From positions 9,381,060 through 9,445,059 of the forward strand of contig OZ038434.1 of assembly GCA_964036275.1 (NCBI GenBank): a stretch of 64,000 nt of DNA. The letters run 5' to 3'. The notes beneath the pieces are model-generated. The model saw only the letters and a list, made by a program, of their open reading frames with translations, made no database searches and was not told the DNA's origin. Position numbers and translations under genes: made by a program. Origin of the DNA: Litoditis marina. Its lineage: Eukaryota; Nematoda; Chromadorea; Rhabditida; Rhabditidae. This document shows positions 46,408 through 61,289 of the stretch, in pieces (the stretch's first letter is position 1; the number at the start of each line of letters is the position of its first letter).

Positions 46408-49400
46408 ATGTTGCAAGATACAAACCAATACTTCGAGAACGCCTTCCACAGAGTGCGACAGGTGAGTATGAATAGTAAACCTTTCATTTTTCGGTTGAAA
46501 TGATTTTCAAAAATGTTTTTCATAACCTGCTGTTATAAAGTTGAATAACCCTTTGCGTGATTTTTACTAAATTGATTGATCCGCTGCAAAGGTCCTATTG
46601 AGAGTGATAAAGACATATAGTACCCCGAGGAGATAGTTCATGGGGTGCTCTTGAGTAAGGTTCCCTCGTTAGTTTTTACGGAGTATTGGGTTTGTTTTTA
46701 TAGAGTTCAGTAATGCGAGCCAAAAATAGCTTGAATATCATGCCCTAAAGTATGAGGAAACAATTATTCTTTTACACCACAACAAATACATTATTTTTAG
46801 CATTCAACGAACAAAAACATGAGGAGCTGGTAAACGTCTGCCTTTTGAATTTGAAACCAAATTACAATAGGGCTTTTTTGCCCCATTCACGTCTTTGCAA
46901 TTAGAAGATATCATTTTTGATAACTGCGAGAGGCTCACAATTTTCTCAAAACCTGAATAATCTACGGCTTAACCTTTTTGCATTTTCGAAAAGTTGTGTG
47001 AAATGCGCACTTTTTCCTAGAGCCATAACTTTTTTTTACTCAGGTCAGTCTCAAGTAGGCGAAGAGGCAGCAGTGAAAAACTCGCATATCGTCGTTTCAG
47101 TTTCTTTATTTCATATCAAGAACGAGATGTCTGCGTGTCATGGTCAAAGTATGTGCACACATTTCAACTAACGCAGAAACCATGTTAATTCGAATATAAA
47201 TCATAAAGTAATGCTTGCAGACTACTATGTGCCAAAAGCCCAATATTTTCACTCGTAGAAACGAGGTTTTCATATGAAAATTCCATGGTAAAACTCTACT
47301 CGTGACCTGTCTCTGAGCCCTAAATGACAATTCGCCAACTGCGTCACTTCTCCGTAAGCCATGAGCTTCTCCGTCTCCTGCCACCTAATTTATATTCTAG
47401 ACGATTAAGTCTGTCATTGCTTCTAATTAACATGCTCGCCTAATTCAACCAACAACTAAATCGGAAATCACTTCTGAGCCATAATGTAAAACGGAGATTT
47501 TCGTCGTGTCTCGAGAGAACTGACGCAGTATCCGTGACATTTATAGAAACAACAAATTTAAATCTCTGCGCACATTTTAATCTTTTCGGTAGAACCATAA
47601 GACATCTACGAACATTGAAAATAGGTTGGTAGTTCTCAGTTAACACTTCTGGCGAATCTGTGAAATTGTATTTCTCAGATAACCGTATATAGTGAGCTTC
47701 ATTCAGCAGGTAACACGTGGGATGATTTCAGGTGGAAAACGAAGAATAATATATTTCTGGAATTGAGCAGATGTAATTGAGCAAAACTTGAATGACATAG
47801 TTCCAATGTCAATCTATGGTGTTTCATGATGATAACGATGATGCTTGTGACAAACAATACTCAAAATATTAATATCGAAATGCGTAACAATGAATAGTAA
47901 TTTGATGAAAAATAGTAAAATCGAAAGAGTTAGTGATGTGAATACTGTGTTTCAGTGTGGCTCTCCCAGTATATCGCCCACCCCTTCAACACACTCTTTG
48001 CGGCTGGAGGCACCACGACCCTTGCGAAGGTTGGCGAACATTTCTTGGAGGGGTGTGTGAATGAAGAGAAACAAAGAACTAGAATGTCATATAAACAAAA
48101 CTTTCTCTTACCATAAGAATTCGGTTCCAATATTTCCATTTCGGCTTTTTTGATGGAACACTGAAGTGTTAACCAAAGCTCTATCACATCGTTCATGTGT
48201 GAAAGTTCAGGGTTGTTCTCAATTTGCGAACGGCTGGAACTATTTGGAACTCTGGTTACAAGTTCTCCACCCTTGGTTAAAAAATAATGTTCTATTTTCC
48301 TTATTTATTGATAATTCACATATTATCAAAACGCACAAATGTTTACCAGCTCAAATTTGTATCAACTCATTCCGTTTTGCAGATGTCGGTCGGCGAGTCC
48401 CGCTCCGGCAAAAACCCAAATGTTGTCCATCGAGCGACAAATTCTAGTGCGGTTAGTTTTCTGACGAGAGCATCTAGCCATCTTCTTTTATTGAAAGTCA
48501 CAATCGTTTAAAGAGGTTATTCATTCATCACGTTAGTTTCAAGTTCTTGTTATCAGAGCTATGTTATTATCTGGTCATCTTGTTTCTCAACATCTAGAAG
48601 CACGTGAGACACATCTTAAAAAGGTTAAATTTGTATAGGGTCATTCAATCTTCTGTTATTCACACGTTTTCAATGGTTTTCCGAGTTGATTCACTCGATC
48701 AAATACTAGTTCAGGTAGTTTTCGAAATATTCGTAGGCTAGATGATATTTTTAATCGAGTAATCTTTCAGGAAGTCGTGGAACAAAGTATCTAGGTCTAC
48801 GTTTGGAACGTCGTGGATGACTGCTCTGACAGGTATGACACATGTTTCTGGTTTGGGACTCTCACAGTATCCATACAATCCTAATCGGACAAAAGTAAGA
48901 GACAAAAAATACAATTTAGCACAAGTGCATGTTGTTCGCAAACGTTTATAAATGACCCGACAATCAACTGTATTTTACGGCGAATTGTATCTTGTATGAA
49001 AATAAAACTTCATTTTGAAATGGTTGAACCGCAGTTGAATTTTCCATTGGCACGTAGGAAAGTTCCTTCGTGGATCATGAGAACTACATAAAATTGAACA
49101 GGACTAAATACTTTTTATACAATGTATAATACCCGAATGTAGAATCATTGAACTGTTTTCAGACAGAGTGGGCAAGAATGTGTTTGGCGGAGATTATACA
49201 AGCATTCAACGCCATACTAGACACTTCATGGACCTCATTCAAGTAAGTTGACCCTCGTGAAATATGAACTTTTTCATGACACTTTCTTTTCTTCGACTTG
49301 CATGTGGGTTTCAAAGGAAAGATATAATTCTAAGTGAAACCTGTTTTCCAGTCCTGTGTGGAAAACCTGAACGATCTCGAGAGCGCCCTGAAACCCTGGC

Positions 49401-50240
49401 TGGACACATTGGGACAGGGACATAGAGGATTCAAAATAAAGTGAGTTCACACGTTCTACACACAAATGTGACACGTTAATACAACATTGTCATATTATCT
49501 TTTAACTACACTTCGGTTTTTTAGTTCTAGAATAATTACCAGTAACACCGAGCGCATTCTAAATTTTTACTCACAGCAAATAATTAGTATGTGTTTGCAG
49601 TTTGTGTACCCCCCATGGAGATATAGGCTCACAATCAATTTACCGCATTACTACCAATGAAACTATTGCAGAGCCCGTCATTGGGAGGCTTTTGGCGAAT
49701 CTTTGGCGTCCACTATTACAGAATGGATTGGCCCCGGCCGATCACATAAGGAAACAGTAAAGGGATGGATGGTGAGTTCACTCTTGATGTGATTAACTCG
49801 GCGAGTCAATGGGCACTACATATATTTCATTGTGAACAACGTTGTTTGCTTCATATAATCATATCGGAGTAGATCAACTCTCTCCGATCTCCACCACTGT
49901 GTTCTGGCAAATTGAATGAGGTCAAGTTTTTTTCTGTTCGATTTCGCCGTATGCGTTTCGAAGGGAGCGTAGTGCCGTTATAGATCAAAAATGTACACAA
50001 GGAAGTGAACGATTTTTTAAAAGCAATACAGTTACACGCGGAACTTGCAAGTTAGGATGGCGAACACAGTGTCACAGAGCATTTATGGAAAACACTTATG
50101 GAAAGCATACGTTAGCACTCCCTGTAATATTCCAGATCCTCTCGTCATTCCTCGCTGATAGACTAGCAGCCGCATCGCGTGCCGCTCACTCGCCAATGCT
50201 TACACCACGGGTTCAACTCATGACATTCAATCAACATTGA
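46408..50240 (+). CDS. Globin with N- and C-terminal extensions
   Basis: Heme protein of the nematode globin family, 210 aa. Exons: 46398-46461 (ATG 46408), 47956-48029, 48383-48451, 48771-48832, 49163-49242, 49352-49440, 49672-49771, 50136-50240 (TGA). All junction phases agree. Residues 1-65 form a Ser/Pro-rich extension. The fold starts at LSIERQILVRKSW (A-helix Trp69). Next come a CD1-like Phe94 in KNVFGG, the distal-His region RHTRHFMDLIQ (His107 by spacing), and the proximal His137 in LGQGH. Helices G/H continue through ITEWIGPGRSHKETVKGWM and FLADRLAAASRAAH. The CD-D region is short compared with myoglobin. The TTTACAG site 10 nt before the ATG would suit SL1 trans-splicing. Whether it binds oxygen or acts as a sensor cannot be told. 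Confidence 0.85.
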
Positions 50241-50882
50241 CACGACGTTTCATTTTATCATTTTGACACGCATTCGCATTTCTATCATGTTTCTGGGCTA
50301 GTTACTCATCAAAATATTTGTTCATATTACACAATGGGAAATAGCAATTTTTGAAATGAGATATTGCAATTTTTTTCAAACAATGAAAGTCTCGTTTCAG
50401 GAGAGAACATTTTGATTTTCGGTTGCTATTGAAAACACAGGAATATGTGGGTGAGTAGCAACTGTAGTACGGAAGAAAAGTCAGAAACAGTGTCACGTAA
50501 ACAGTGTTAACCAACTGAAAATATTATACCGACTGTAGAATAGTGTAAAGACAACACAGTGTGAGAACGAACGAAACATTAAAACAAGCAGTTATACAGT
50601 CATACGTTTTCGATTACAGTTTCCGTTTGAGGTTTGAACATAGGCAAACCAGAACTCATTTCTGAGTTCAAACAAAAGTAACAAACTTTTCAACGGAAAA
50701 CTGCCCACAGAAAAATGATTGTGCAGGTATTTACACCACCTAATAGTTGTAATCTTATGTTAAAAGACTGATATCATTGCTAACTTAGCTGATTTCGAAC
50801 CTTAAAGAAATATATGAGTTCAAAGTACAGAGTTGAAGTTCTGAGTTGAAGTTGTAGTTTTTTGGTGGGTAATCGTAATGGT

Positions 50883-53736
50883 CTACTGGACCCCAACCGC
50901 TTCAGGTTTGCAGAACAACGCCTTTTTCACTTGTGTATTGGACACCAACATGGAGAACGGAATGACAAAGTCGGGTAGAAATATGAGAATGTTGAACCAA
51001 GACATCAGAACTGTTGATAAAGAAATTGGAACCACGCCAAGAACTTCACTAAAAACGGCGAGCATCTGTAAAAATTCGGTTCACAATACAATACAAAACA
51101 ATACAAGCTCTAATTTCTCGCGTGTTCCTAGCGTTGTTTGAAACTTTTGTTGGCATGACGTTCCAATATCAAAAGTTTTTTAATGTGAACTCCGTGATGG
51201 TATTATTCTATTATAGTTTAATGAAGGAATGAGGCACGGTTTATATATGATTTGCTAATCCAGCTTTAGGTAAAAACGGTTTGTTTGTCTTTATCCGTTT
51301 TTAAGTTGCATCTGGTTGCTTTCCGGTCGAGATTGGCCAGTATTGGCGGTTATTGAGGTATACTCCAACGAAGGTTTGGTCTACATCTAAATAGTCGGTC
51401 ATTCTCAAAGTAGTCATTCATTATGTCACCATACTATATATTATGTAGTCCCGCTGAACGAACGCTGAACACTTTTAACAGTTCACGAATTCCGAGACTT
51501 ACAGTACGAAAGTAGAAGAAAACTATTCATGTCAAAATATTATCAAAAAGTTTTCTCGGCAAGTAATTTTGGAGAGTTATTGTTTTATCAAGCATTCAGT
51601 CAAAAACCTTATCAAGTCGATAGCAGTTTACCAAATCAGTTGTCGTGATCAAAGCCCCCTGTATGGCCAAGTTTCTCTCGGCCTTCGAATAATTCGAGTT
51701 GGTCGATTTGGCCTGGCGACGGAGGCTCACAAATATAACTATGTACAACCCCATGGATGTAACAGGAGACACAATCAGACATCGATCGAGAATCTGCAAT
51801 TCATTATTGTTGCGTGTGTGTAAATGCTGGTCAACAATATTGATAGTTTACTGTTGAAATCAAAACCACACTGCAACAAATAGATCGTTCAGTTCTGATC
51901 TAGTTTCTATGTCTCAGATTTATTTTTCTGTATATGTTTTCAAGAAGCAGGTATTGATATTAGTTCTTTTTCCGAATCTCTTGTTCGCAAAACCAGTTAA
52001 GTCGCGTCATTAATAAAACTGAACACTTCTCGGGACCAATTATGACTTCTACGAAGAATGAAATCACTCTAATAAGGTGCTGTCGATTGCATCACCGGAG
52101 TGAACAGTCTTTGTACCCGTACAGGTGAAAGAAATGATTGATGTAATGTTTGCGCTCGATAGAAAACTAGAACTCAGTCAAATCTAATGTACTCTTGAGC
52201 TAAGCACAGCCTGTAGATTGCTCACATTTCGGCTACTAGCAGTAAACGGAAAAGCCACTTAAAAAGCTAACAAGCCTAAAAATATATATACTTTTGTCTC
52301 CCACGCTCACGAATACTGATGTGTTCTACATGTTTCACGAGCTGATAATTTGAACTCTGTGTGAAATTTTATTAATGAGGTGAACATGCATTTCATCAGC
52401 GGCTTCACTGAAAAACGGCGTAGTTCTACCACCAAAGTTTTACCACGTGTAATATGGGAAGTGCTCACTTCATACAAGTCGTAATTGACTGCTATGCCCA
52501 CATAGTCCAGTCCGTGCACATATTTAGTTTTGAGATCGCAGAAGAAGTGAACGGCGATCGTGAATCCAACTGACAGCGAGACCACCACAACGAGCAGAAC
52601 TACGAAGGCTTTCCTGTGAATGAATACTGGACTGGCTGAAGTCAAAATTTACAAACCTCCACAAGAACATTTCCCGTCGCCGCTGTCACCACTAGATGGT
52701 TCAATTGCGGAGAATTGCTGAGGTTGTTTTGTATTTTCAGAAACTGTCTTGCTATTTCTTGCAATCCAGGAGAACACAGTTTTACGATTTTCGTCAGAGC
52801 AAACCGCAAACCAAGTCAGAGCAAACCGCATTAAAAGTACGGGGGTGAAACACAGAACACTGACATATCTTTTTCGAACATACCCTTCGAAAAAGCTGCG
52901 TTCTAAGCGTCGGTCTACAATAACTGCATATCGATTGAAAGAAATCGTGGTCACCAATAAGATTGACAGATATTGAAAGAAAATTCTGTATAGCTGTTTA
53001 GCAGCTGCTCTCCAATGTTATAAGGAGAGGCTATCAGGGAAGGCAATGTATTGAAGCAGAAGTATATCGACTGACGAAAGAGTATTGCAAACGACAGAAA
53101 CTTCACAAGTGGAAAGAAGGTGCTTTGCAATGAACAAACAACCAAAGTATGGATTTACCAGTGGTTTTTGTTGATAAAAGACTCGCAGTTTACCTATAAG
53201 TTTATTTTAGTAAGTAGTGAACTGAATCACTGCGATTTTCATACTCTGATTGTGATTCAGTTTCGATAGTGAGAATAACATATGATGACGAATTCACCGT
53301 AAAGTTCCGTTTACTCGAAATCAGAGTTACGATGAGAATAATATTACAAATGGATGCAAAAATTATGAGAACGCTCTCTACGATCGAGGACAGAGGTATG
53401 GGGTAGTCGACATCCTTGTCGAACATTGTTTCAATTTCGCAGAAAGGGTTCACTTCGACATCACACAACGCCTGGAACACTCAGGGTGTGTCATATTCAT
53501 GGTTTTCGTATATATCATATTGAACAGTAATTATGTACTGAGGTCGAACGACGCAAATGAATTCCCCTTCCCTATAGATTAAAAACAACTAAATCGTCCG
53601 CAAGTCACCGGCAGTAAACAATTTTTCGAATACAATAAACCGAAAACGGTTCATTTTCGTTTACAACAAGTATAGTGTATACCTGGGTCGTATTTTCGGT
53701 ATTGATTGAACTGGGCAAGACTGACGTGTTATCCAT
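50883..53736 (-). pseudogene. Serpentine (7TM) chemoreceptor copy A, frameshifted
   Basis: Tandem paralogue of 54770-59385. Minus-strand exons: 53683-53736 (ATG; MDNTSVLP.., two N-glycosylation sites), 53298-53471 (TM1, IPLSSIVESVLIIF), about 52884-53120 (TM3, ending NRYAVIVDRRLE), 52469-52613 (TM4, FVVLLVVVVSLSVGFTIAV), 51632-51793 (TM5 and start of TM6), 50883-51065 (TM6-TM7, FLPDFVIPFSMLV; stop at 50883). Exon lengths equal those of copy B, except for a 9-codon shorter cytoplasmic loop and a shorter C-terminus. In the TM3 exon, the stretch between CACCAATA and GCAGCTGC (plus strand) is 41 nt against 42 in copy B. This shifts the frame and meets a stop before NRYAVIVD. The acceptor before the TM3 exon is also degraded, and no TM2 exon was found. 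The nematode receptor class (srx/srv/srsx-like) was not determined. Confidence 0.75.
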
Positions 53737-54008
53737 CATCCAAAACAACAAATATTTTCCGAACTTAGAAGAGCTGACGTTTGGTCACTGATAGTGAAAC
53801 ACTACTGACTATTGCGTCCTCGGTAACACCACACCCCTTCTAATAAATTGCCGTAAAAATGTTTAAACCTACTCAATTAACACTGAACACTGAACTTGAG
53901 ATTCATTTCATGTGGCAGCCTCACAAAAACTCAGCAAATTGTGCAGTAATTACAGTTTTTCACTCAGAATGCGAATAATTGAGAACAAGTTTATCCATAC
54001 CGAGTATG

Positions 54009-54520
54009 CAAAATGCATTCGGAGATAATAAACATTCAGGACCACTCTAGACACTTTATGAACCACATTTAAGTAGCTTCTTACTCGAAAAACGTTTACG
54101 TAACAGAGGACATACGCTTTTTTCATCGTTTCTAGTCATTAGTGGAAAAGCTGAGCGATCTCGAAAGTGTTCGAAAACCTTGGCAGGACAGATAAGTTTG
54201 TTTTGCTCAGAACTATAACCTTTCACACTTACTCCATTTCACTATTCGGCGAGAACAAAGAGTTGGAACCGCATTCGACCTTGTTTTTGGTAATGAATAT
54301 TGGTTACGTTCACTACTTTGAATATATCCATTTTAACCACACATTGAAAAGTATTCGCCTATGTTTCGATGGAGATACAAGTTACATTTTTCTTCGGCAA
54401 CAACTTCAATGAAAGTTCTCAGAGCCCGCCAATGAGAAGCTTTTGGCAAAATCTTGGCGTCCACTAATACAGAATGAGTTGGCCCCGGTCGATCACGTAA
54501 GGAAACAGGGATGGATGATG
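54009..54520 (+). pseudogene. Globin pseudogene fragment (copies of exons 5-7)
   Basis: Three blocks match the globin in order and spacing. Block 54009-54073 matches exon 49163-49242 (CACTCTAGACACTTTATGAA against CATACTAGACACTTCATGGA). Block 54135-54185 matches exon 49352-49440 (AGCGATCTCGAAAGTG against AACGATCTCGAGAGCG). Block 54423-54520 matches exon 49672-49771 (TTGGCCCCGGTCGATCACGT). The first block has TAA where the globin has CAA, and the third has substitutions, a deletion and a lost donor. The 5' globin exons are absent, which marks one boundary of the duplication. Confidence 0.85.
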
Positions 54521-54769
54521 AGTTCATTATCTATATAACTCTCGGTTGAATCATCTCATTTAACAATACAGTCTCGTTAAAATATACAAACACAACATAG
54601 TATGACAAAAGGGAACAGTAGAACAAACAATAAACAATTCTATACTAAAATGAACTTAGACCGAAACTTGATTGTGTGGTTTTCAAAAACACTCAGCTTT
54701 GGCTCTGATGTGGAGATCTCAGGTTGATATCGAACCGCGAAGAACTAGTTGAGTTTTCAAGTTCACAGT

Positions 54770-57700
54770 TCAAGTTGTGGTCTTTCTTTGGGTAATCGTA
54801 ATGGTCGTCTTGACCCCAACCGATTCAGGTTTGCAGAACAACGCCTTTTTCACTTGTTGGTTGAACACCAACATAGAAAACGGAATGACAAAGTCAGGTA
54901 GAAATACGAAAACGTTGAACCAGGTCGCCAGAACTATCAAAAGTTTCAGAGGAATTGGGACCGAGCGAAGAACTTCACCAAGAACAGCAATCATCTGTGA
55001 GGACGTGGTTAAAAGTTTCAAGGACATGTGGTCGACTGGTTGTGGGCGCGCTAGCACTCAAAACACCATGGTTCGATCCCACTATAGCTGTATCTTCATG
55101 GCGGACCGCATGAGCTGGTAATAAAGCTAACCCATGCCTAGTTTCTCTCTACGGACCCACCTCTCAACGGATACTACAATGTGATCAACGTTGTAATTGT
55201 ATGAACAAAGTAACACACGGCTGAAAGTTGCCGTGAAAGATCATTATTATATTATTCTACACTTTATAACGCTTTCTTATTTTGCTCATCCAATACGGCG
55301 AATCCGAATACCCATTTCACATAGTCTGTAGTTTAATGCCATTTCTTTTAGCTCATAGAGAGCAAACTACATCGAGGATTCGGTCAGCAGGTCAGCACCT
55401 ATTTAGTTGCACTTAGAGGTTTTCATCATTATGTCAATTCACGCTGAACAAGCAACAACAACATCAATGTTCGTAGTTCAGGCGTTTTCAGGTAAGTTCA
55501 CGTTTCACATGAGTTACAGTTAAACGATCATCAATGCAATTTTTTACTCCAGAGATCAATGCAATTTTTTACTCCAACTTGAAAGCTCTTGGTGCGAGTA
55601 ATCAGCCGTTTGCAACAATATTTTGTCATGCTCCCGGGGGCAGTTTCGGGCTTCCGGGAGTGCAAAATTGGTTGAGTTTTGGCACCGAGGCCAGAAACGC
55701 TCCAGGGAGCATGATACATACGGCCACAGGAGAGTTTATGTATCTTCCAAGACTTCCTACTACTCTATTTAGAACTGATAGCAACATACCAAGTTAGTTG
55801 TTGTGATAAAAGCACCCTGTAGGGCCAAGTTCCTCTCGGCCTTCGAATAGTTCGATTTGGTCGTGCTGTTTCCAGATTTGTTGTACTGATATTTGGCCTG
55901 ACGACGGAGGCTCACAAATATTACCGCGTACAAAACCATGGATGAAACAGGAAAAATAATCATGCACCGATCGATTATCTGTAATCACTAGTTGTTGTAT
56001 GAACACGAAAAAATGTACAGCATCGTGCGCAGCGCGGAGCGCTGCGCAGATTAGTTTTTGTTCAAAGGTCTGCAGACATTACAAAACAGATTATTACAAT
56101 TTTCTTCAAAGTACGTCGACCATTTTCTTAGATTTTTGCATGAATCACTGAAGGGCCACACGTCTACAAGATACCAAGTTCACTTTCCAAGTAGTTATTT
56201 ATTGAGAGGAGTTAGAGGGCCCAACGTCTCGCAAAAATGGCTTCCGTGCGGGGCGGCGGCGGCGGCGGCGCCGGCGACAAAAGTGTCCGCCTCCTCAAAT
56301 CTCGGCATAGTTTCGCACAAAATTAACTTATTTCCAAAAATTTTACATTATTGAAAAGCTCTAAAAAAGTTGAGATATACGTATTTTCCAGGTATGTCTG
56401 AAATTTGAATATTACGTGTGAGAGAGCCGAAAATGGTCTCGCGAAATATCATGGATAGACCGGTTTCGTGAAAATAAAAATGAAAGAAGAGTTTAACGTG
56501 TAGTAGGAAAACGTTTTTCAATGAAGAACTCATGACAGGCGGGTACAGCTTGGTTTTCACTCCTATTCACATGTCTGATTGGCGGATTGGATAAACGCTT
56601 TATTAACGCACGGCGAACGAAGGTTCGATTCCTGCCTGGAGCACAAAAGTTGCTCTCACTTGAACGAGGTTACAACTACGCCAATCGTTCTAAACTACGG
56701 CGCCGTTAAAAACTCCAATAGAACCTCATAACATTCCTTGTTTAGCTTATTGTTCAAAAATATATTTTTTTCAAAAATGACCGTTACTTCGTAACGATAG
56801 AAAAAGAGTTCAGTTAGTATAAAAAACGAGTGTAAAGAAAGTAAAGATTAGTTTTGGAGAAACATGTACGAGAAATATAAAAGAAGTCCAATAAAAATAT
56901 GTTGAGGAAAAGTCTAATCTCGCTCGGTTTAAAAATTCAAAAAAAGGATACCGAGTTTTTTGCTACCGGAAGCTTATACTCCGTTGTTTTCAAGAGAAGC
57001 GAGATTAGCATTTTCCTCAACATATGTTTATTGGACTTCTTTTATATTTCTCGTACATGTTTCTCCAAAACTAATCTTTACTTTCTTTACACTCGTTTTT
57101 TTATACTATTATTGTTGCTTTTTCTGCTCAAATCGAAACAACATTTTCCGAAGTTGACAGATAGTATCAGAATGTACTGCAAGTTTATGATTCAGCACAT
57201 TAAGCACGTGCAACCTTTCGGGCAAGGAGGTATGTTTCCGAGAAGCAGCTATTGGGAAAGTTTTTTTTCTATTCCTGAATCTTTTATTTGCAATGCCAGG
57301 TAACTTTGCGATGTTTGTTGCAGTCTGCGAACAAACAATCCACAAACACGAACATTTCTTAGAACCAATTATGAATTCTACGAAGAATTAACCTTCTCAA
57401 TTTGATTATTATCCAGGTGATTACAATTTTATCACCGGAGTGAACAGTCATTGCACCCGTACGGAGAAATAATTAGTAGAATGTTCGAATCTACTAGCAG
57501 AATCTAACACCTTGAGACGAATTCACTCGAGAACCGGGTACTTCCCGAATCGAACCGCGAACCTGTCACTGCAGAACCGAACCGAACCGAACGGACCTAC
57601 CGAACCGACATTCTAAACTGACCGGTTCTCCAGTGGGAGATTGGAACAAGACCGACCTTAGTCAGGATTTAAACAAACAAGTCGTACACAAGGAAAAATG

Positions 57701-59385
57701 AGTGGATCCCCACTCATTTAACCTTATAATATACTATCTGTTTTGGTCGGTTCGGTTCGGTTCACCAGTGACCGGTTTGCGGCTTGGTTCGGAAAGGACC
57801 CGGTTCTTCAGTGAATTGGCCATACCTTGGAGGCATACTCGAACTCGTTAGGAGTACCGTAGAGTTTTGCGAAACATGAAAACTGGAGATAGCAACTTTT
57901 AGATTGTTCGATATTTTGATATACGAGGTACTAGCAATGTATGGAGAATCGAGTAGAACATGAACAAACAGCCACAGTTGTGATGTTCGTAGTCTACGCT
58001 CAAGCTGGTGATGTGTTCTATACCTACGTGAATATTCACTAGACTGGATGCAAAACTGAAAAATAGTGCCGTTTTTGCAATGTTTCATCATGTGTGGTCT
58101 AAAACTGCTCACATTGTACAACACGAGATCGTCTGCATGATCCACGTAGCCCAGTCCATGCACATATTTCCTCTCCAATCCGCAGAAAAAATGAACGGCG
58201 ATTGTAAAACCAACTGCAGTAAAGACCAGCACGACAAGCAGAATTACGAAAGGTTTCCTGAAGTAACTAATTTGTTGAACAACCTTCTGATACAACAACC
58301 CAAACAACCGCAGTATGACATTAATAATCAACAAAAGTTTGTTTTTATCCTCTTTCCACGCCAATCAATCGTACTTTGGTGGTCTGAAAAAACGTTTCCG
58401 AAGTCGAAAACAGCTTTAGGATTATGGTGCTGACCACTCAAAACGCACTGGTTTCCGAAAAAAAGATAACATTCAGATACGGTAATGAATTTTTGAACAT
58501 ACCCTTTGAAGAATATAAGTTCAAGGCGTCGGTCTACAATAACTGCATATCGGTTCAAAGCAATTGTGACCACCAATAGCATTGACAGATAACCGAAGAA
58601 GAAGTTACTGTAGCCGGTCAGCAGCTGCTCTCCAATGTTATAAGGAGAACTTAATAGGAAGGGAAATGTTTTGAACCAAAAATCAATCATCTGACGAAAG
58701 AGTATAGCGAACGACAGAAACTTCACGAGTTGGAAGAAGGTACTCTGAAAAAATACATGTCCAGTGAAAAATACAATTTGGTACATGGTACCATAAGTGA
58801 AGGTTGTTGAGCGAAAGTTTGCGGTGGACATACAAGTTGGATATATTGAACAGCACAAGCCAGAGCAAAATTGTATAATGTATATAACCTTCACATATTT
58901 TTAAAAAGATTCCGACCACGGTTGGTGCGAGTCAGAATCAAGAGATTACAAACTTACCGAAAATATTCGTTTTCTTGAGATCAGAATAACGATGAGAGTA
59001 ATGTTGCAAATGGATACAAGAATCATGAGAACGCTCTCCACGATAGATGATAGTGGAATGGGATAATCGATATTCTTGTCGAACATTATCTCCACCTTGC
59101 AGAAGGGGTTCACTTCGTCATCACACAACGCCTGGAATACTTGAGTTGAACTCAACTTTGTTTATGGAACCTCAAACCCTGAATTCAGGTGATATGACGT
59201 GTTTCTCCAAAACATACAATCATAATAACTTCACTGTGAATTTTAATTTTGCAGATGCAGAGAAGGTTTCCAAAAACGGTTCAGTAAATGCAGAAGTGGA
59301 AACTGTTAGTTTTTGCATCGATTAACCATACCTGAGTTGTATTCTCCGCGTCAGTGGAAGTGGGCGCAACTGAAGAGTTCTCCAT
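54770..59385 (-). CDS. Serpentine (7TM) chemoreceptor copy B
   Basis: Predicted chemosensory G-protein-coupled receptor in the plasma membrane. Minus-strand exons: 59332-59385 (ATG; MENSSVAPTSTDAENTTQ), 58958-59131 (TM1, IPLSSIVESVLMILVSICN), 58503-58744 (TM3, LLVVTIALNRYAVIVDRRLE), 58113-58257 (TM4, FVILLVVLVFTAVGFTIAVH), 55790-55978 (TM5 VSSMVLYAVIFVSLRRQ, then TM6 start), 54770-54994 (TM6 end, TM7 FLPDFVIPFSMLVFN, stop TGA). Phases agree. TM2 should lie at about 58750-58930, where hydrophobic frames exist (for example TILLWLVLFNIS), but no splice choice joins the frame cleanly, so this part is unresolved and may hide a defect. A 2.1-kb intron between TM4 and TM5 has collected several foldback repeats. 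N-terminal NSS and NTT are likely glycosylated. The exact sr class is not assigned. Confidence 0.72.
55020..55095 (+). repeat. tRNA-like repeat relic
   Basis: GACTGGTTGTGGGCGCGCTAG followed by GGTTCGATCCC gives tRNA A- and B-box-like blocks at about the right spacing. No acceptor stem is seen. It lies in the last intron of receptor copy B. Confidence 0.4.
55535..55580. repeat. Short direct duplication
   Basis: ATCAATGCAATTTTTTACTC occurs twice in immediate succession in an intron of receptor copy B. Confidence 0.85.
55626..55713. repeat. Short GC-rich foldback
   Basis: TCATGCTCCCGGGGGCAGTTTC is inverted, with a few mismatches, as GAAACGCTCCAGGGAGCATGA. The whole is about 88 bp. It lies in the intron between the TM6 halves of receptor copy B. 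Confidence 0.7.
56575..56650 (+). repeat. tRNA-like repeat relic
   Basis: GATTGGCGGATTGGATAAACG and GGTTCGATTCC are arranged like tRNA A and B boxes. The flanks do not pair. It lies in the 2.1-kb intron of receptor copy B. A GC-rich GGCGGCGGCGGCGGCGGCG run lies upstream at about 56252-56275. Confidence 0.45.
56815..57108. repeat. Inverted repeat, ~110-bp arms, ~73-bp loop
   Basis: The arm at 56815-56924 (TAGTATAAAAAACGAGTGTA start) is nearly perfectly inverted at 56998-57108 (ending TACACTCGTTTTTTTATACT). The 134-codon plus-strand frame across it is not a gene. It is in the large intron of receptor copy B. Confidence 0.9.
57519..57822. repeat. Foldback element with (ACCGA)n interior
   Basis: The left arm 57519-57597 (CACTCGAGAACCGGGTAC, then GAACCGAACCGAACCGAACG) is inverted with mismatches at 57744-57822. 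Arms are about 75 bp and the loop about 145 bp. It lies in the large intron of receptor copy B and accounts for the long minus-strand frame that seems to extend exon 58113-58257. Confidence 0.85.
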
Positions 59386-61289
59386 GACTCGAAAACTTCT
59401 GATTTGGTCGAAATGTCGGATGCAGACGTTCGACCACCAGTTTGAGAAACACACTTTCTAATGAAATGCCGTAAAATGAATTAGACGCAATTTAGCTGGT
59501 TATCTGAGAACGCTCAGTTTGAAAATTATTACCGTCAACGATTTGCAAAGTTTTTTATTGCAGGTAGTTATTTGTCTATTGTGAACAAACTATTTAAAAA
59601 AGGCAGAAAGTAATGCTAGCTTGGGTACCTCCGGGATACCTAAACATAACGTAGCGTACGCCCAAACTAAAATATTTGCATCTCCTCGAACTCAATTGAA
59701 TTTATAAGGTTTTTTTAATCAGAATTCCTTTTTTCAATATATTCAACTATGATAGAAGTCCGCCGAGCTGGCATGAGCGCCTTAGATTGCAGGCTCTCTC
59801 ATACCAATAAGGGGAAAATTGAAGTATCGCCCCCCACTTTAGTTGAGTCCCCCCCGTAGCACTTCAACCCCCCACCCAAGCTAAAACCTGAAAATCTAGG
59901 AGAGGGGGGGGGGTCAAAATTCAACTTCGACATTTACTATTTACCCCCCACCTGGGTCGGCGGGGGTAGAACTTCAATGGTGGGGGGTCAAACTTCAACG
60001 AGTGGGGGGCTGAACTTCAATACCGGAAATGTTTACTTTTTACCCCCCACCCTCAAACTTTTGTATTGCAAGTGATAAATTGAATTATCACCCCCCGGTG
60101 GGGGGGGGGGTCAAACTACAATTCCCCAAACGCAATACCAATTCAGAAAGGTGGGGGGTAAAAAGTCAATGTTCCCCCAATAAGTTCTAGAAAGTGGTTA
60201 TTTCAGTTTTTTTTTTTTGAATATTTCGGATCCGAAGCTATATCACTAGGCGGATGAACATTTGAACAAATCCAGGAAAACTGGTGGGATAGCAAGCAGC
60301 GGCATCGAAAAGCCGGGTTTACTATCCACTACCCATCTCGTAAAATAATTTTGATCAGGCTTGAGTCTGTTCTGTTGGAAAATTTCCAAACCAATTGATT
60401 CTGCCCCTCATGCCAACTCCCAGCCAATTGGAAAGCAACTTTTGTGGCGGTCTCGACGAGAGAGTACGCAGATCCGAATGACGCAGACTGTCTCAGCCTG
60501 TCTGCGGCCTCTTCACTATTTCTTGCTTACGTAGCTGCCAGAGTTCAGTGAATTGAAGCTATGTTTCTTAGCCATTCAGAAGCACTGCCGTCTATTCTTT
60601 TCGATTAGCAAGCTAGAAATATTGAGTTTAGAGGTCAATGAGGCCCCAGATAGGCTAAGACAGTCTGCGTCTCTCAGAACTGCGCACTCTCTCGGCGAGG
60701 AAGCTACAAAAATTGTTTTCTTAATTGCAGTGAACCGTATTAACACTGAAGTTTTCTGTAATTGGCTTCTATCGACGGGTAGAACGAACTATACATGAGA
60801 AAATTTGATAGGGTTTATACGCTCAAACACGTTATAATAACTAGAAAATCTGACTGATTGTTTTCCTCTTAAAATTCAGAGCTCATAACAGAGGCAGCTG
60901 AAATGAGACCCCACAAATACACGAAGTAAACAACATTTTTGCACAGAATGTTGTCAGGCAACGTTTACATCAACTCTGAAAATAGTGTGCACCCCCCTGG
61001 CCGAGAATGTGCTGAAAATGTGTGTTACAAGCCTTGGTTATAGATCTCCACTTTGTTCCAGAAAAAAATTGAAGAGAAGAAGCAGCGTGCAGAAACGAAA
61101 AACATTTTCCTAACGAGAACTGTGAACCTGTTTTCTCGAGAAAACAGACGGAGACGTGGTTTTGGAAGCGTTTTCGTCTGGTTCAGTACACGTAATTCAA
61201 ACGTTTGACGCAGAACGGAGCCGATTTCCAATCATTTCATTACTTCTTCCCGTGGTGTACGGCAGTGTTCTCACTAATCAACAGACAAA
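59386..61289. other. Intergenic spacer
   Basis: Divergent 5' flanks of receptor copy B (-) and the phosphatase-like gene (+). It holds the MITE at 59812-60176. No gene is recognised. Confidence 0.5.
59812..60176. mobile_element. 365-bp hAT-like MITE with 8-bp target duplication
   Basis: The 8-bp direct repeat CCAATAAG flanks the element (59804-59811 and 60177-60184). Termini are GGGAAAATTGA and, inverted, GGGAACATTGA. A further similarity, CCCCCCAC, lies inside both ends. The interior is made of alternating G- and C-runs with CTTCAA/TTGAAG motifs and has no coding capacity. An 8-bp duplication is typical of the hAT superfamily. Confidence 0.85.

Follow-up and report, generated by a model that had tools for sequence, protein, structure and literature searches.

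Analysis of a 64,000-nucleotide stretch of the Litoditis marina genome (contig OZ038434.1, called C16 below, positions 9,381,060-9,445,059; hereafter the window, by which positions are numbered) revealed two copies of one unit, 49163-53858 and 54000-59476, in each of which globin exons on the plus strand are followed by a convergent serpentine-type receptor on the minus strand. In unit 1 the globin is intact and receptor A is most likely a pseudogene; in unit 2 the globin is reduced to remnants of exons 4, 5 and 6 alone, and receptor B is an intact gene. We put at roughly 90% the probability that the pair arose by tandem duplication at one edge of a receptor array, that the partial globin copy decayed, that receptor A was broken late and that B is the working copy. 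A mechanism is proposed where an unequal-exchange-like event affected the left edge of a head-to-tail receptor array. The copied stretch would have begun inside the convergent globin, most likely in intron 3, and have ended a short way upstream of the edge receptor. The second globin copy, born without promoter and 5' exons, would never have been a gene and would have drifted, later losing exon 7 when about 0.86 kb was deleted. The two receptors would both have been retained for a time, with A evolving faster; the exon-3 acceptor and the frame of A would have been lost late (a simple two-phase model places this in roughly the final third of A's history), and receptor B presumably continues in function.

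Limits and collinearity of the duplicated unit

Self-comparison gave nine direct blocks that agree in order and strand, with identities of 73-82% and E-values from 2e-59 to 3e-5. Blocks 1-3 correspond to three globin exons (49188-49245/54020-54075, 49345-49409/54129-54193 and 49655-49780/54407-54526), blocks 4, 5 and 7-9 to five receptor exons (50833-51069/54756-54998, 51619-51812/55777-55997, 52459-52616/58103-58260, 52871-53130/58490-58750 and 53284-53481/58944-59141), and block 6 lies in receptor intron 4 (52021-52133/57350-57472); the short receptor exon 1 can also be aligned between A and B. The last recognisable piece of each unit is a block of 28 nucleotides (nt) upstream of the receptor, at 53831-53858 in unit 1 and at 59449-59476, the right end of unit 2, and none of 200 shuffles matches as well. 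A preliminary description of this DNA had read the twofold order of globin (+) and receptor (-) as one duplicated unit, which is borne out by the nine blocks and by the collinear similarity that was looked for outside the receptor exons and found in the globin exons, the 28-nt upstream block and the intron-4 block. The outer coordinates given there are exact: globin exon 4, and with it the recognisable part of unit 1, starts at 49163, and the ATG of receptor B starts at 59385.

Between the blocks, 54588-54629 in the globin-receptor spacer of unit 2 has a weak match, likewise in order, to 50546-50590 in that of unit 1, which one of 200 shuffles equalled. The best matches of six further introns (receptor introns 1, 2, 3 and 5; globin introns 4 and 5) were equalled by 7 to 190 of 200 shuffles. 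Introns that cannot be aligned between the units are expected of copies this old. No third unit was found among the best candidates scored in the genome. A separate origin of the globin fragment, as a retrocopy or transposed piece that came to lie beside a duplicated receptor by chance, is scarcely credible: the relic exons are separated and keep their order, so that a retrocopy was rejected, they are collinear with the receptor copy, and the weak spacer match falls in the same order.

The intact globin and its relic

The globin of unit 1 is an intact gene of seven exons, whose single open frame extends from the APRPLRRCRSASP motif of the N terminus as far as the stop at 50240. The coding part of exon 1, placed by its frame with the other exons, spans 47894-48029 and ends in ...APRPLRR, its start codon and left limit being uncertain. 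Exons 2 (48383-48451), 3 (48771-48832), 4 (49163-49242), 5 (49352-49440), 6 (49672-49771) and 7 (50136-50240, with the stop codon), all on the plus strand like exon 1, were assigned by frame reading and by tblastn with six Caenorhabditis proteins, which recovers the exons of the gene, exons 1 and 3 weakly (exon 3 with two of the six). These proteins are the six hits of a search among 5.8 billion proteins, every one of them from Caenorhabditis: C. angaria (64%), C. bovis, C. auriculariae, C. tropicalis, C. brenneri and C. remanei; this pattern by itself points to nematode DNA. Identity is 52-64% over the compared part, and the PLRR|CRSASP motif, of which PLRR closes exon 1, is common to all six. 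One hit is labelled CBN-GLB-28 by its source; the window globin is GLB-28-like and is probably GLB-28, an identity that rests on these nearest hits. The globin domain PF00042 scores 31.7 bits (cut-off 22). His38 and His71 of the 144-residue globin query are invariant in the alignment, with His38 aligned to a His of neuroglobin; we take them to be the distal and proximal haem positions.

Unit 2 retains exon 4' (54000-54075), exon 5' (54136-54195), which has lost its 3' part, and exon 6' (54423-54517), which has a 5-nt deletion, all on the plus strand and identified by self-comparison and frame reading. Two conserved tryptophan codons of exon 6' have become stops, as has the final aligned codon of exon 4' and of exon 5', and frame-breaking indels are present. 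Relic and globin differ by 25 replacements in 71 codons; with the six Caenorhabditis proteins as outgroups, 19 are derived in the relic, one in the globin, and five are assignable to neither. If synonymous divergence (dS) is split evenly, the ratio of replacement to synonymous divergence (dN/dS) would be about 0.75 on the relic branch and 0.04 on that of the intact globin. The relic thus looks close to neutral since its birth, as far as sequence can tell. A genome search with the globin returned seven matches, six of which are exons 2-7 of the intact gene, and among the best candidates scored there is no further relic besides that of unit 2.

The absence of the 5' globin exons from the second copy, as first described, holds: exons 1-3 leave no trace upstream of the relic in 53501-54040 (33 of 200 shuffles as good). 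The duplicated part is not the 3' end of the globin, as had been supposed, since exon 7 is also gone from unit 2: it has left no trace in 54500-54800, which covers the gap that separates the relic from receptor B (163 of 200 shuffles matched as well). By their coordinates, globin and receptor are separated by 1,111 bp in unit 1, compared with 252 bp in unit 2. Exon 6 and the receptor were both copied and exon 7 is situated between them, so that it must originally have belonged to the unit and have been deleted later.

Several points weigh against the proposed account of the duplication. The interval expected to contain the duplication junction, where the upstream flank of receptor A meets the point before exon 4', is 53859-53999; a base-exact junction was looked for there and not found. 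Globin intron 3 has no match in 53740-54025 (79 of 200 shuffles as good), and the best match of this region to the upstream flank of receptor B is the 28-nt block. The pairwise dN/dS of relic and globin, which counts alignable codons only, is 0.39 (bootstrap 0.18-0.81), somewhat below the expectation for one fully neutral branch, and a complete second globin with a short functional phase would be compatible with this value. Codon-position counts of the relic are not different from those of the receptors (p = 0.62). The branch ratios are simple counts and not a codon-model fit, and the even split of dS is rough because synonymous divergence is uneven along the unit.

An alternative is a duplication of the whole globin together with the receptor, in which a complete second globin, perhaps briefly active, lost exons 1-3 and exon 7 by separate deletions. 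The slightly low pairwise ratio would fit such a history, and the loss of exon 7 after duplication (the blocks flanking it are both in unit 2) indicates that deletions do happen here. We nevertheless consider it unlikely. It needs an extra deletion of exons 1-3 that ends within the 141 bp between the upstream block of receptor A and exon 4', these exons would have vanished from 53501-54040 without trace, and 19 of the 20 polarised changes fall on the relic. A copy that began inside the globin remains the preferred account.

Fates of the two receptors

Receptor B (54770-59385, minus strand; exons 59332-59385, 58958-59131, 58503-58744, 58113-58257, 55790-55978 and 54770-54994) is a seven-transmembrane (7TM) gene of six exons, with GT-AG at all introns, matching phases and one open reading frame of 342 amino acids; "largely intact" in the preliminary description understates it, as the gene is fully intact. 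Receptor A (50883-53736, minus strand; exons 53683-53736, 53298-53471, 52884-53124, 52469-52613, 51632-51793 and 50883-51065) can be aligned to B across all six exons, at 72% identity. Exon 3 of A (52884-53124) carries two lesions: one missing base shifts the frame, and the AG acceptor before the exon is lost. An intact globin beside a frameshifted receptor had already been recognised in unit 1 and is upheld here; the lost acceptor adds a second lesion. The AG is present in B and in all 17 paralogous loci compared, in each of which exon 3 reads through 80 codons without stop or frameshift. These loci were drawn from 19, omitting L032, which is the same gene as L014, and L031, whose match falls short of the exon start. 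Both lesions are private to A and would thus have arisen after the duplication, which makes receptor A most likely a pseudogene.

An assembly error, or a splice form that avoids the break, could in principle leave receptor A a gene. Its dN/dS against B (0.30) and the lack of any stop within the shared coding region apart from its own C-terminal one are in keeping with this, but a single exon holds two lesions, both derived, the next AG leads into a frame that contains a stop, and skipping of exon 3 breaks the phase of exon 4. We therefore regard a functional receptor A as very improbable.

Synonymous divergence between A and B is 0.565 and dN/dS is 0.304 (bootstrap 0.21-0.43; 317 codons), with branch values of about 0.44 for A and 0.17 for B. 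Derived replacements number 47 in A and 18 in B (p = 0.0004), with 23 assignable to neither. In neutral simulations of the shared coding region, 0.28 changes per site (half of the divergence) produced a mean of 6.1 stops and no stop-free run among 400, and at 0.1 changes per site 6.75% of the runs were stop-free. A two-phase model, where A is first constrained like B and then neutral, gives a neutral phase of about 0.33 of the history of A, or 0.09 changes per site. These estimates suggest that receptor A remained under constraint during most of its history and died late, and that the globin fragment decayed throughout. The "reciprocal decay" proposed at the outset is apt as a map of the two units, but not as a single symmetrical process. 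One event would have yielded a fragment that was probably non-functional from the start and a receptor that was lost late; a near-neutral fragment serves as a local clock, so that the receptor's time of death can be read against it.

Comparison of synonymous divergence along the unit, which the preliminary description had recommended, revealed that it is uneven and lowest at the facing 3' ends: synonymous differences are 0.195 in globin exon 6, 0.232 in receptor exon 6 and 0.320 in receptor exon 5, and higher in the exons that flank these (0.396-0.730). This could reflect gene conversion that homogenised the facing ends, from globin exon 6 to receptor exons 6-5, in which case dates would differ by exon; such conversion, which we hold to be possible but doubtful, would supplement the tandem duplication and not replace it. 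The best low-divergence interval extends from globin exon 6 into receptor exon 6 (0.039 inside versus 0.427 outside; 41 of 1000 codon shuffles as good), and receptor exons 5-6 differ from exons 1-4 (0.273 versus 0.469, p = 0.004), a split picked post hoc. The interval is, however, marginal once the search is allowed for; replacement changes, scanned in the same way, did not single out an interval (128 of 300 shuffles did as well), and only short pieces match in the spacer between globin exon 6 and receptor exon 6. It is suggestive of gene conversion, no more.

Intron elements, the receptor array and known systems

The intron-4 block (52021-52133 in A, 57350-57472 in B), identified by self-comparison, shuffles and genome search, is apparently non-coding. 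Overall identity is 73%, rising to 83-86% within two cores (48 and 42 nt), and the other receptor introns are unalignable. Its score of 88 compares with a maximum of 34 in 200 shuffles, and a genome search at the DNA level finds only the two receptor sites. Inspection of the frames and the alignment made no common coding frame apparent, and fold z-scores disagree between the copies (-2.55 and -1.15 on the plus strand, -1.33 and -0.94 on the minus strand), so that the block looks neither coding nor clearly structured. It is highly improbable that this block and the facing 3' ends, made up of the last receptor exon and globin exon 6 or its relic, are functionally kept in both units; if they were, they could form, for example, a regulatory or antisense 3'-end element of the convergent globin-receptor pair, and the relic would not be wholly inert.

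Intron 4 of receptor B also contains a palindromic element at 56815-57108 that resembles a miniature inverted-repeat transposable element (MITE), with 115-nt arms that are 93% complementary. Of 915 candidates from a first look at the genome, 40 were scored, and all 40, including the copy at 56815-57108, are 97-100% identical over the 126-nt query. Such near-identity makes the insertion look far younger than the duplication. A second inverted repeat in the same intron, at 57520-57817, has 71-nt arms that are 85% complementary and is rich in GAACCG. Part of receptor A intron 5 (51069-51154) matches places on contigs C4 and C3 at 76-80% and is perhaps a dispersed repeat. Short repeats that contain runs of G or C and have "ACTTCAA" tails are clustered to the right of unit 2, at 59818-60172, where they occur in both orientations.

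A genome search with receptor B revealed at least 12 minus-strand relatives at 9.432-9.506 Mb on C16, of which A and B are the leftmost two; the globin adjoins the left end of this array. The other ten are 42-51% identical to B at exon 3. Membership in a chemoreceptor cluster, proposed from the window alone, is supported by this array, which reaches beyond the window on the right. A and B are sisters in an exon-3 tree of 19 rows (support 100/99), and more relatives of B occur on C16, C3 and C4. Two of these, L026 and L031 (C16:4.79 and 4.73 Mb), are separated by about 60 kb; their matched sequences are almost identical, and they are perhaps recent duplicates.

Profile searches gave only 7tm_1 for either receptor, under the cut-off in both cases (E 0.0024 for B, 0.015 for A), and neither exceeds the cut-offs of Srv (PF10323) or Srx (PF10328). 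Four paralogues were joined from exon matches: one reaches Srv at 24.1 (cut-off 21), another 7tm_1 at 42.6 (cut-off 30.5) and Srx at 28.2 (cut-off 23.8), and two match nothing. The label "serpentine receptor" for A and B appears fair on this evidence. No homologue of B in other species was found at E 0.001 among 3154 candidates from the 5.8 billion proteins, and an A+B alignment likewise gave none at E 10 among 7997 candidates scored; the search needs shared exact words, and an empty result does not show that none exist. The one PDB match (E 0.71) is not credible. Receptor B reads 12 codons past the stop position of A (54773-54808), where the DNA of A is still similar. In the window as a whole, no RNA family matches at gathering scores. 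Nine more of its long open frames were compared with Pfam: two gave matches, all below the cut-off, and the other seven gave none at E 10.

Among the papers searched there was none on nematode globin pseudogenes, and among the titles listed for receptor clusters and gene fragments nothing on point; this particular globin-receptor pair may not have been described before. Nematodes offer many documented cases of partial duplication and of receptor pseudogenes, and the pair is a clean new example of ordinary birth and death. It provides a well-resolved worked example of how growth of a receptor cluster drags in part of a neighbouring gene, and knowledge of nematode chemoreceptor turnover is unchanged by it.

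The window globin shares 52-64% identity and the N-terminal PLRRCRSASP motif with the Caenorhabditis GLB-28-like globins, and differs from them in having a second copy nearby, headless and tailless, of exons 4-6. In the excerpted text of PMC2576238, Y15E3A.2 is paired with number 28, and its C. elegans-C. briggsae dN/dS of 0.1876 is the highest among the table values listed. According to the excerpt of PMC2576165, the chemoreceptor families of C. elegans form clusters, and the 19 largest families contain about 400 pseudogenes. The window resembles these clusters, as far as that excerpt describes them, in its clustered 7TM genes, its duplicates and a pseudogene with multiple defects, whereas A and B fall below the cut-off of every chemoreceptor profile. 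About half of young C. elegans duplicate pairs are partial or chimeric in the excerpted part of PMC2728529. The likeness to the pairs described there lies in a duplication that ends inside a gene, a partial second copy and local order. The window unit, however, spans about 5 kb in comparison with a median of 1.4 kb in that excerpt, and its pair is older (dS 0.57) than the low-divergence pairs named in the title of that study, the partial member being a bystander globin beside a receptor.

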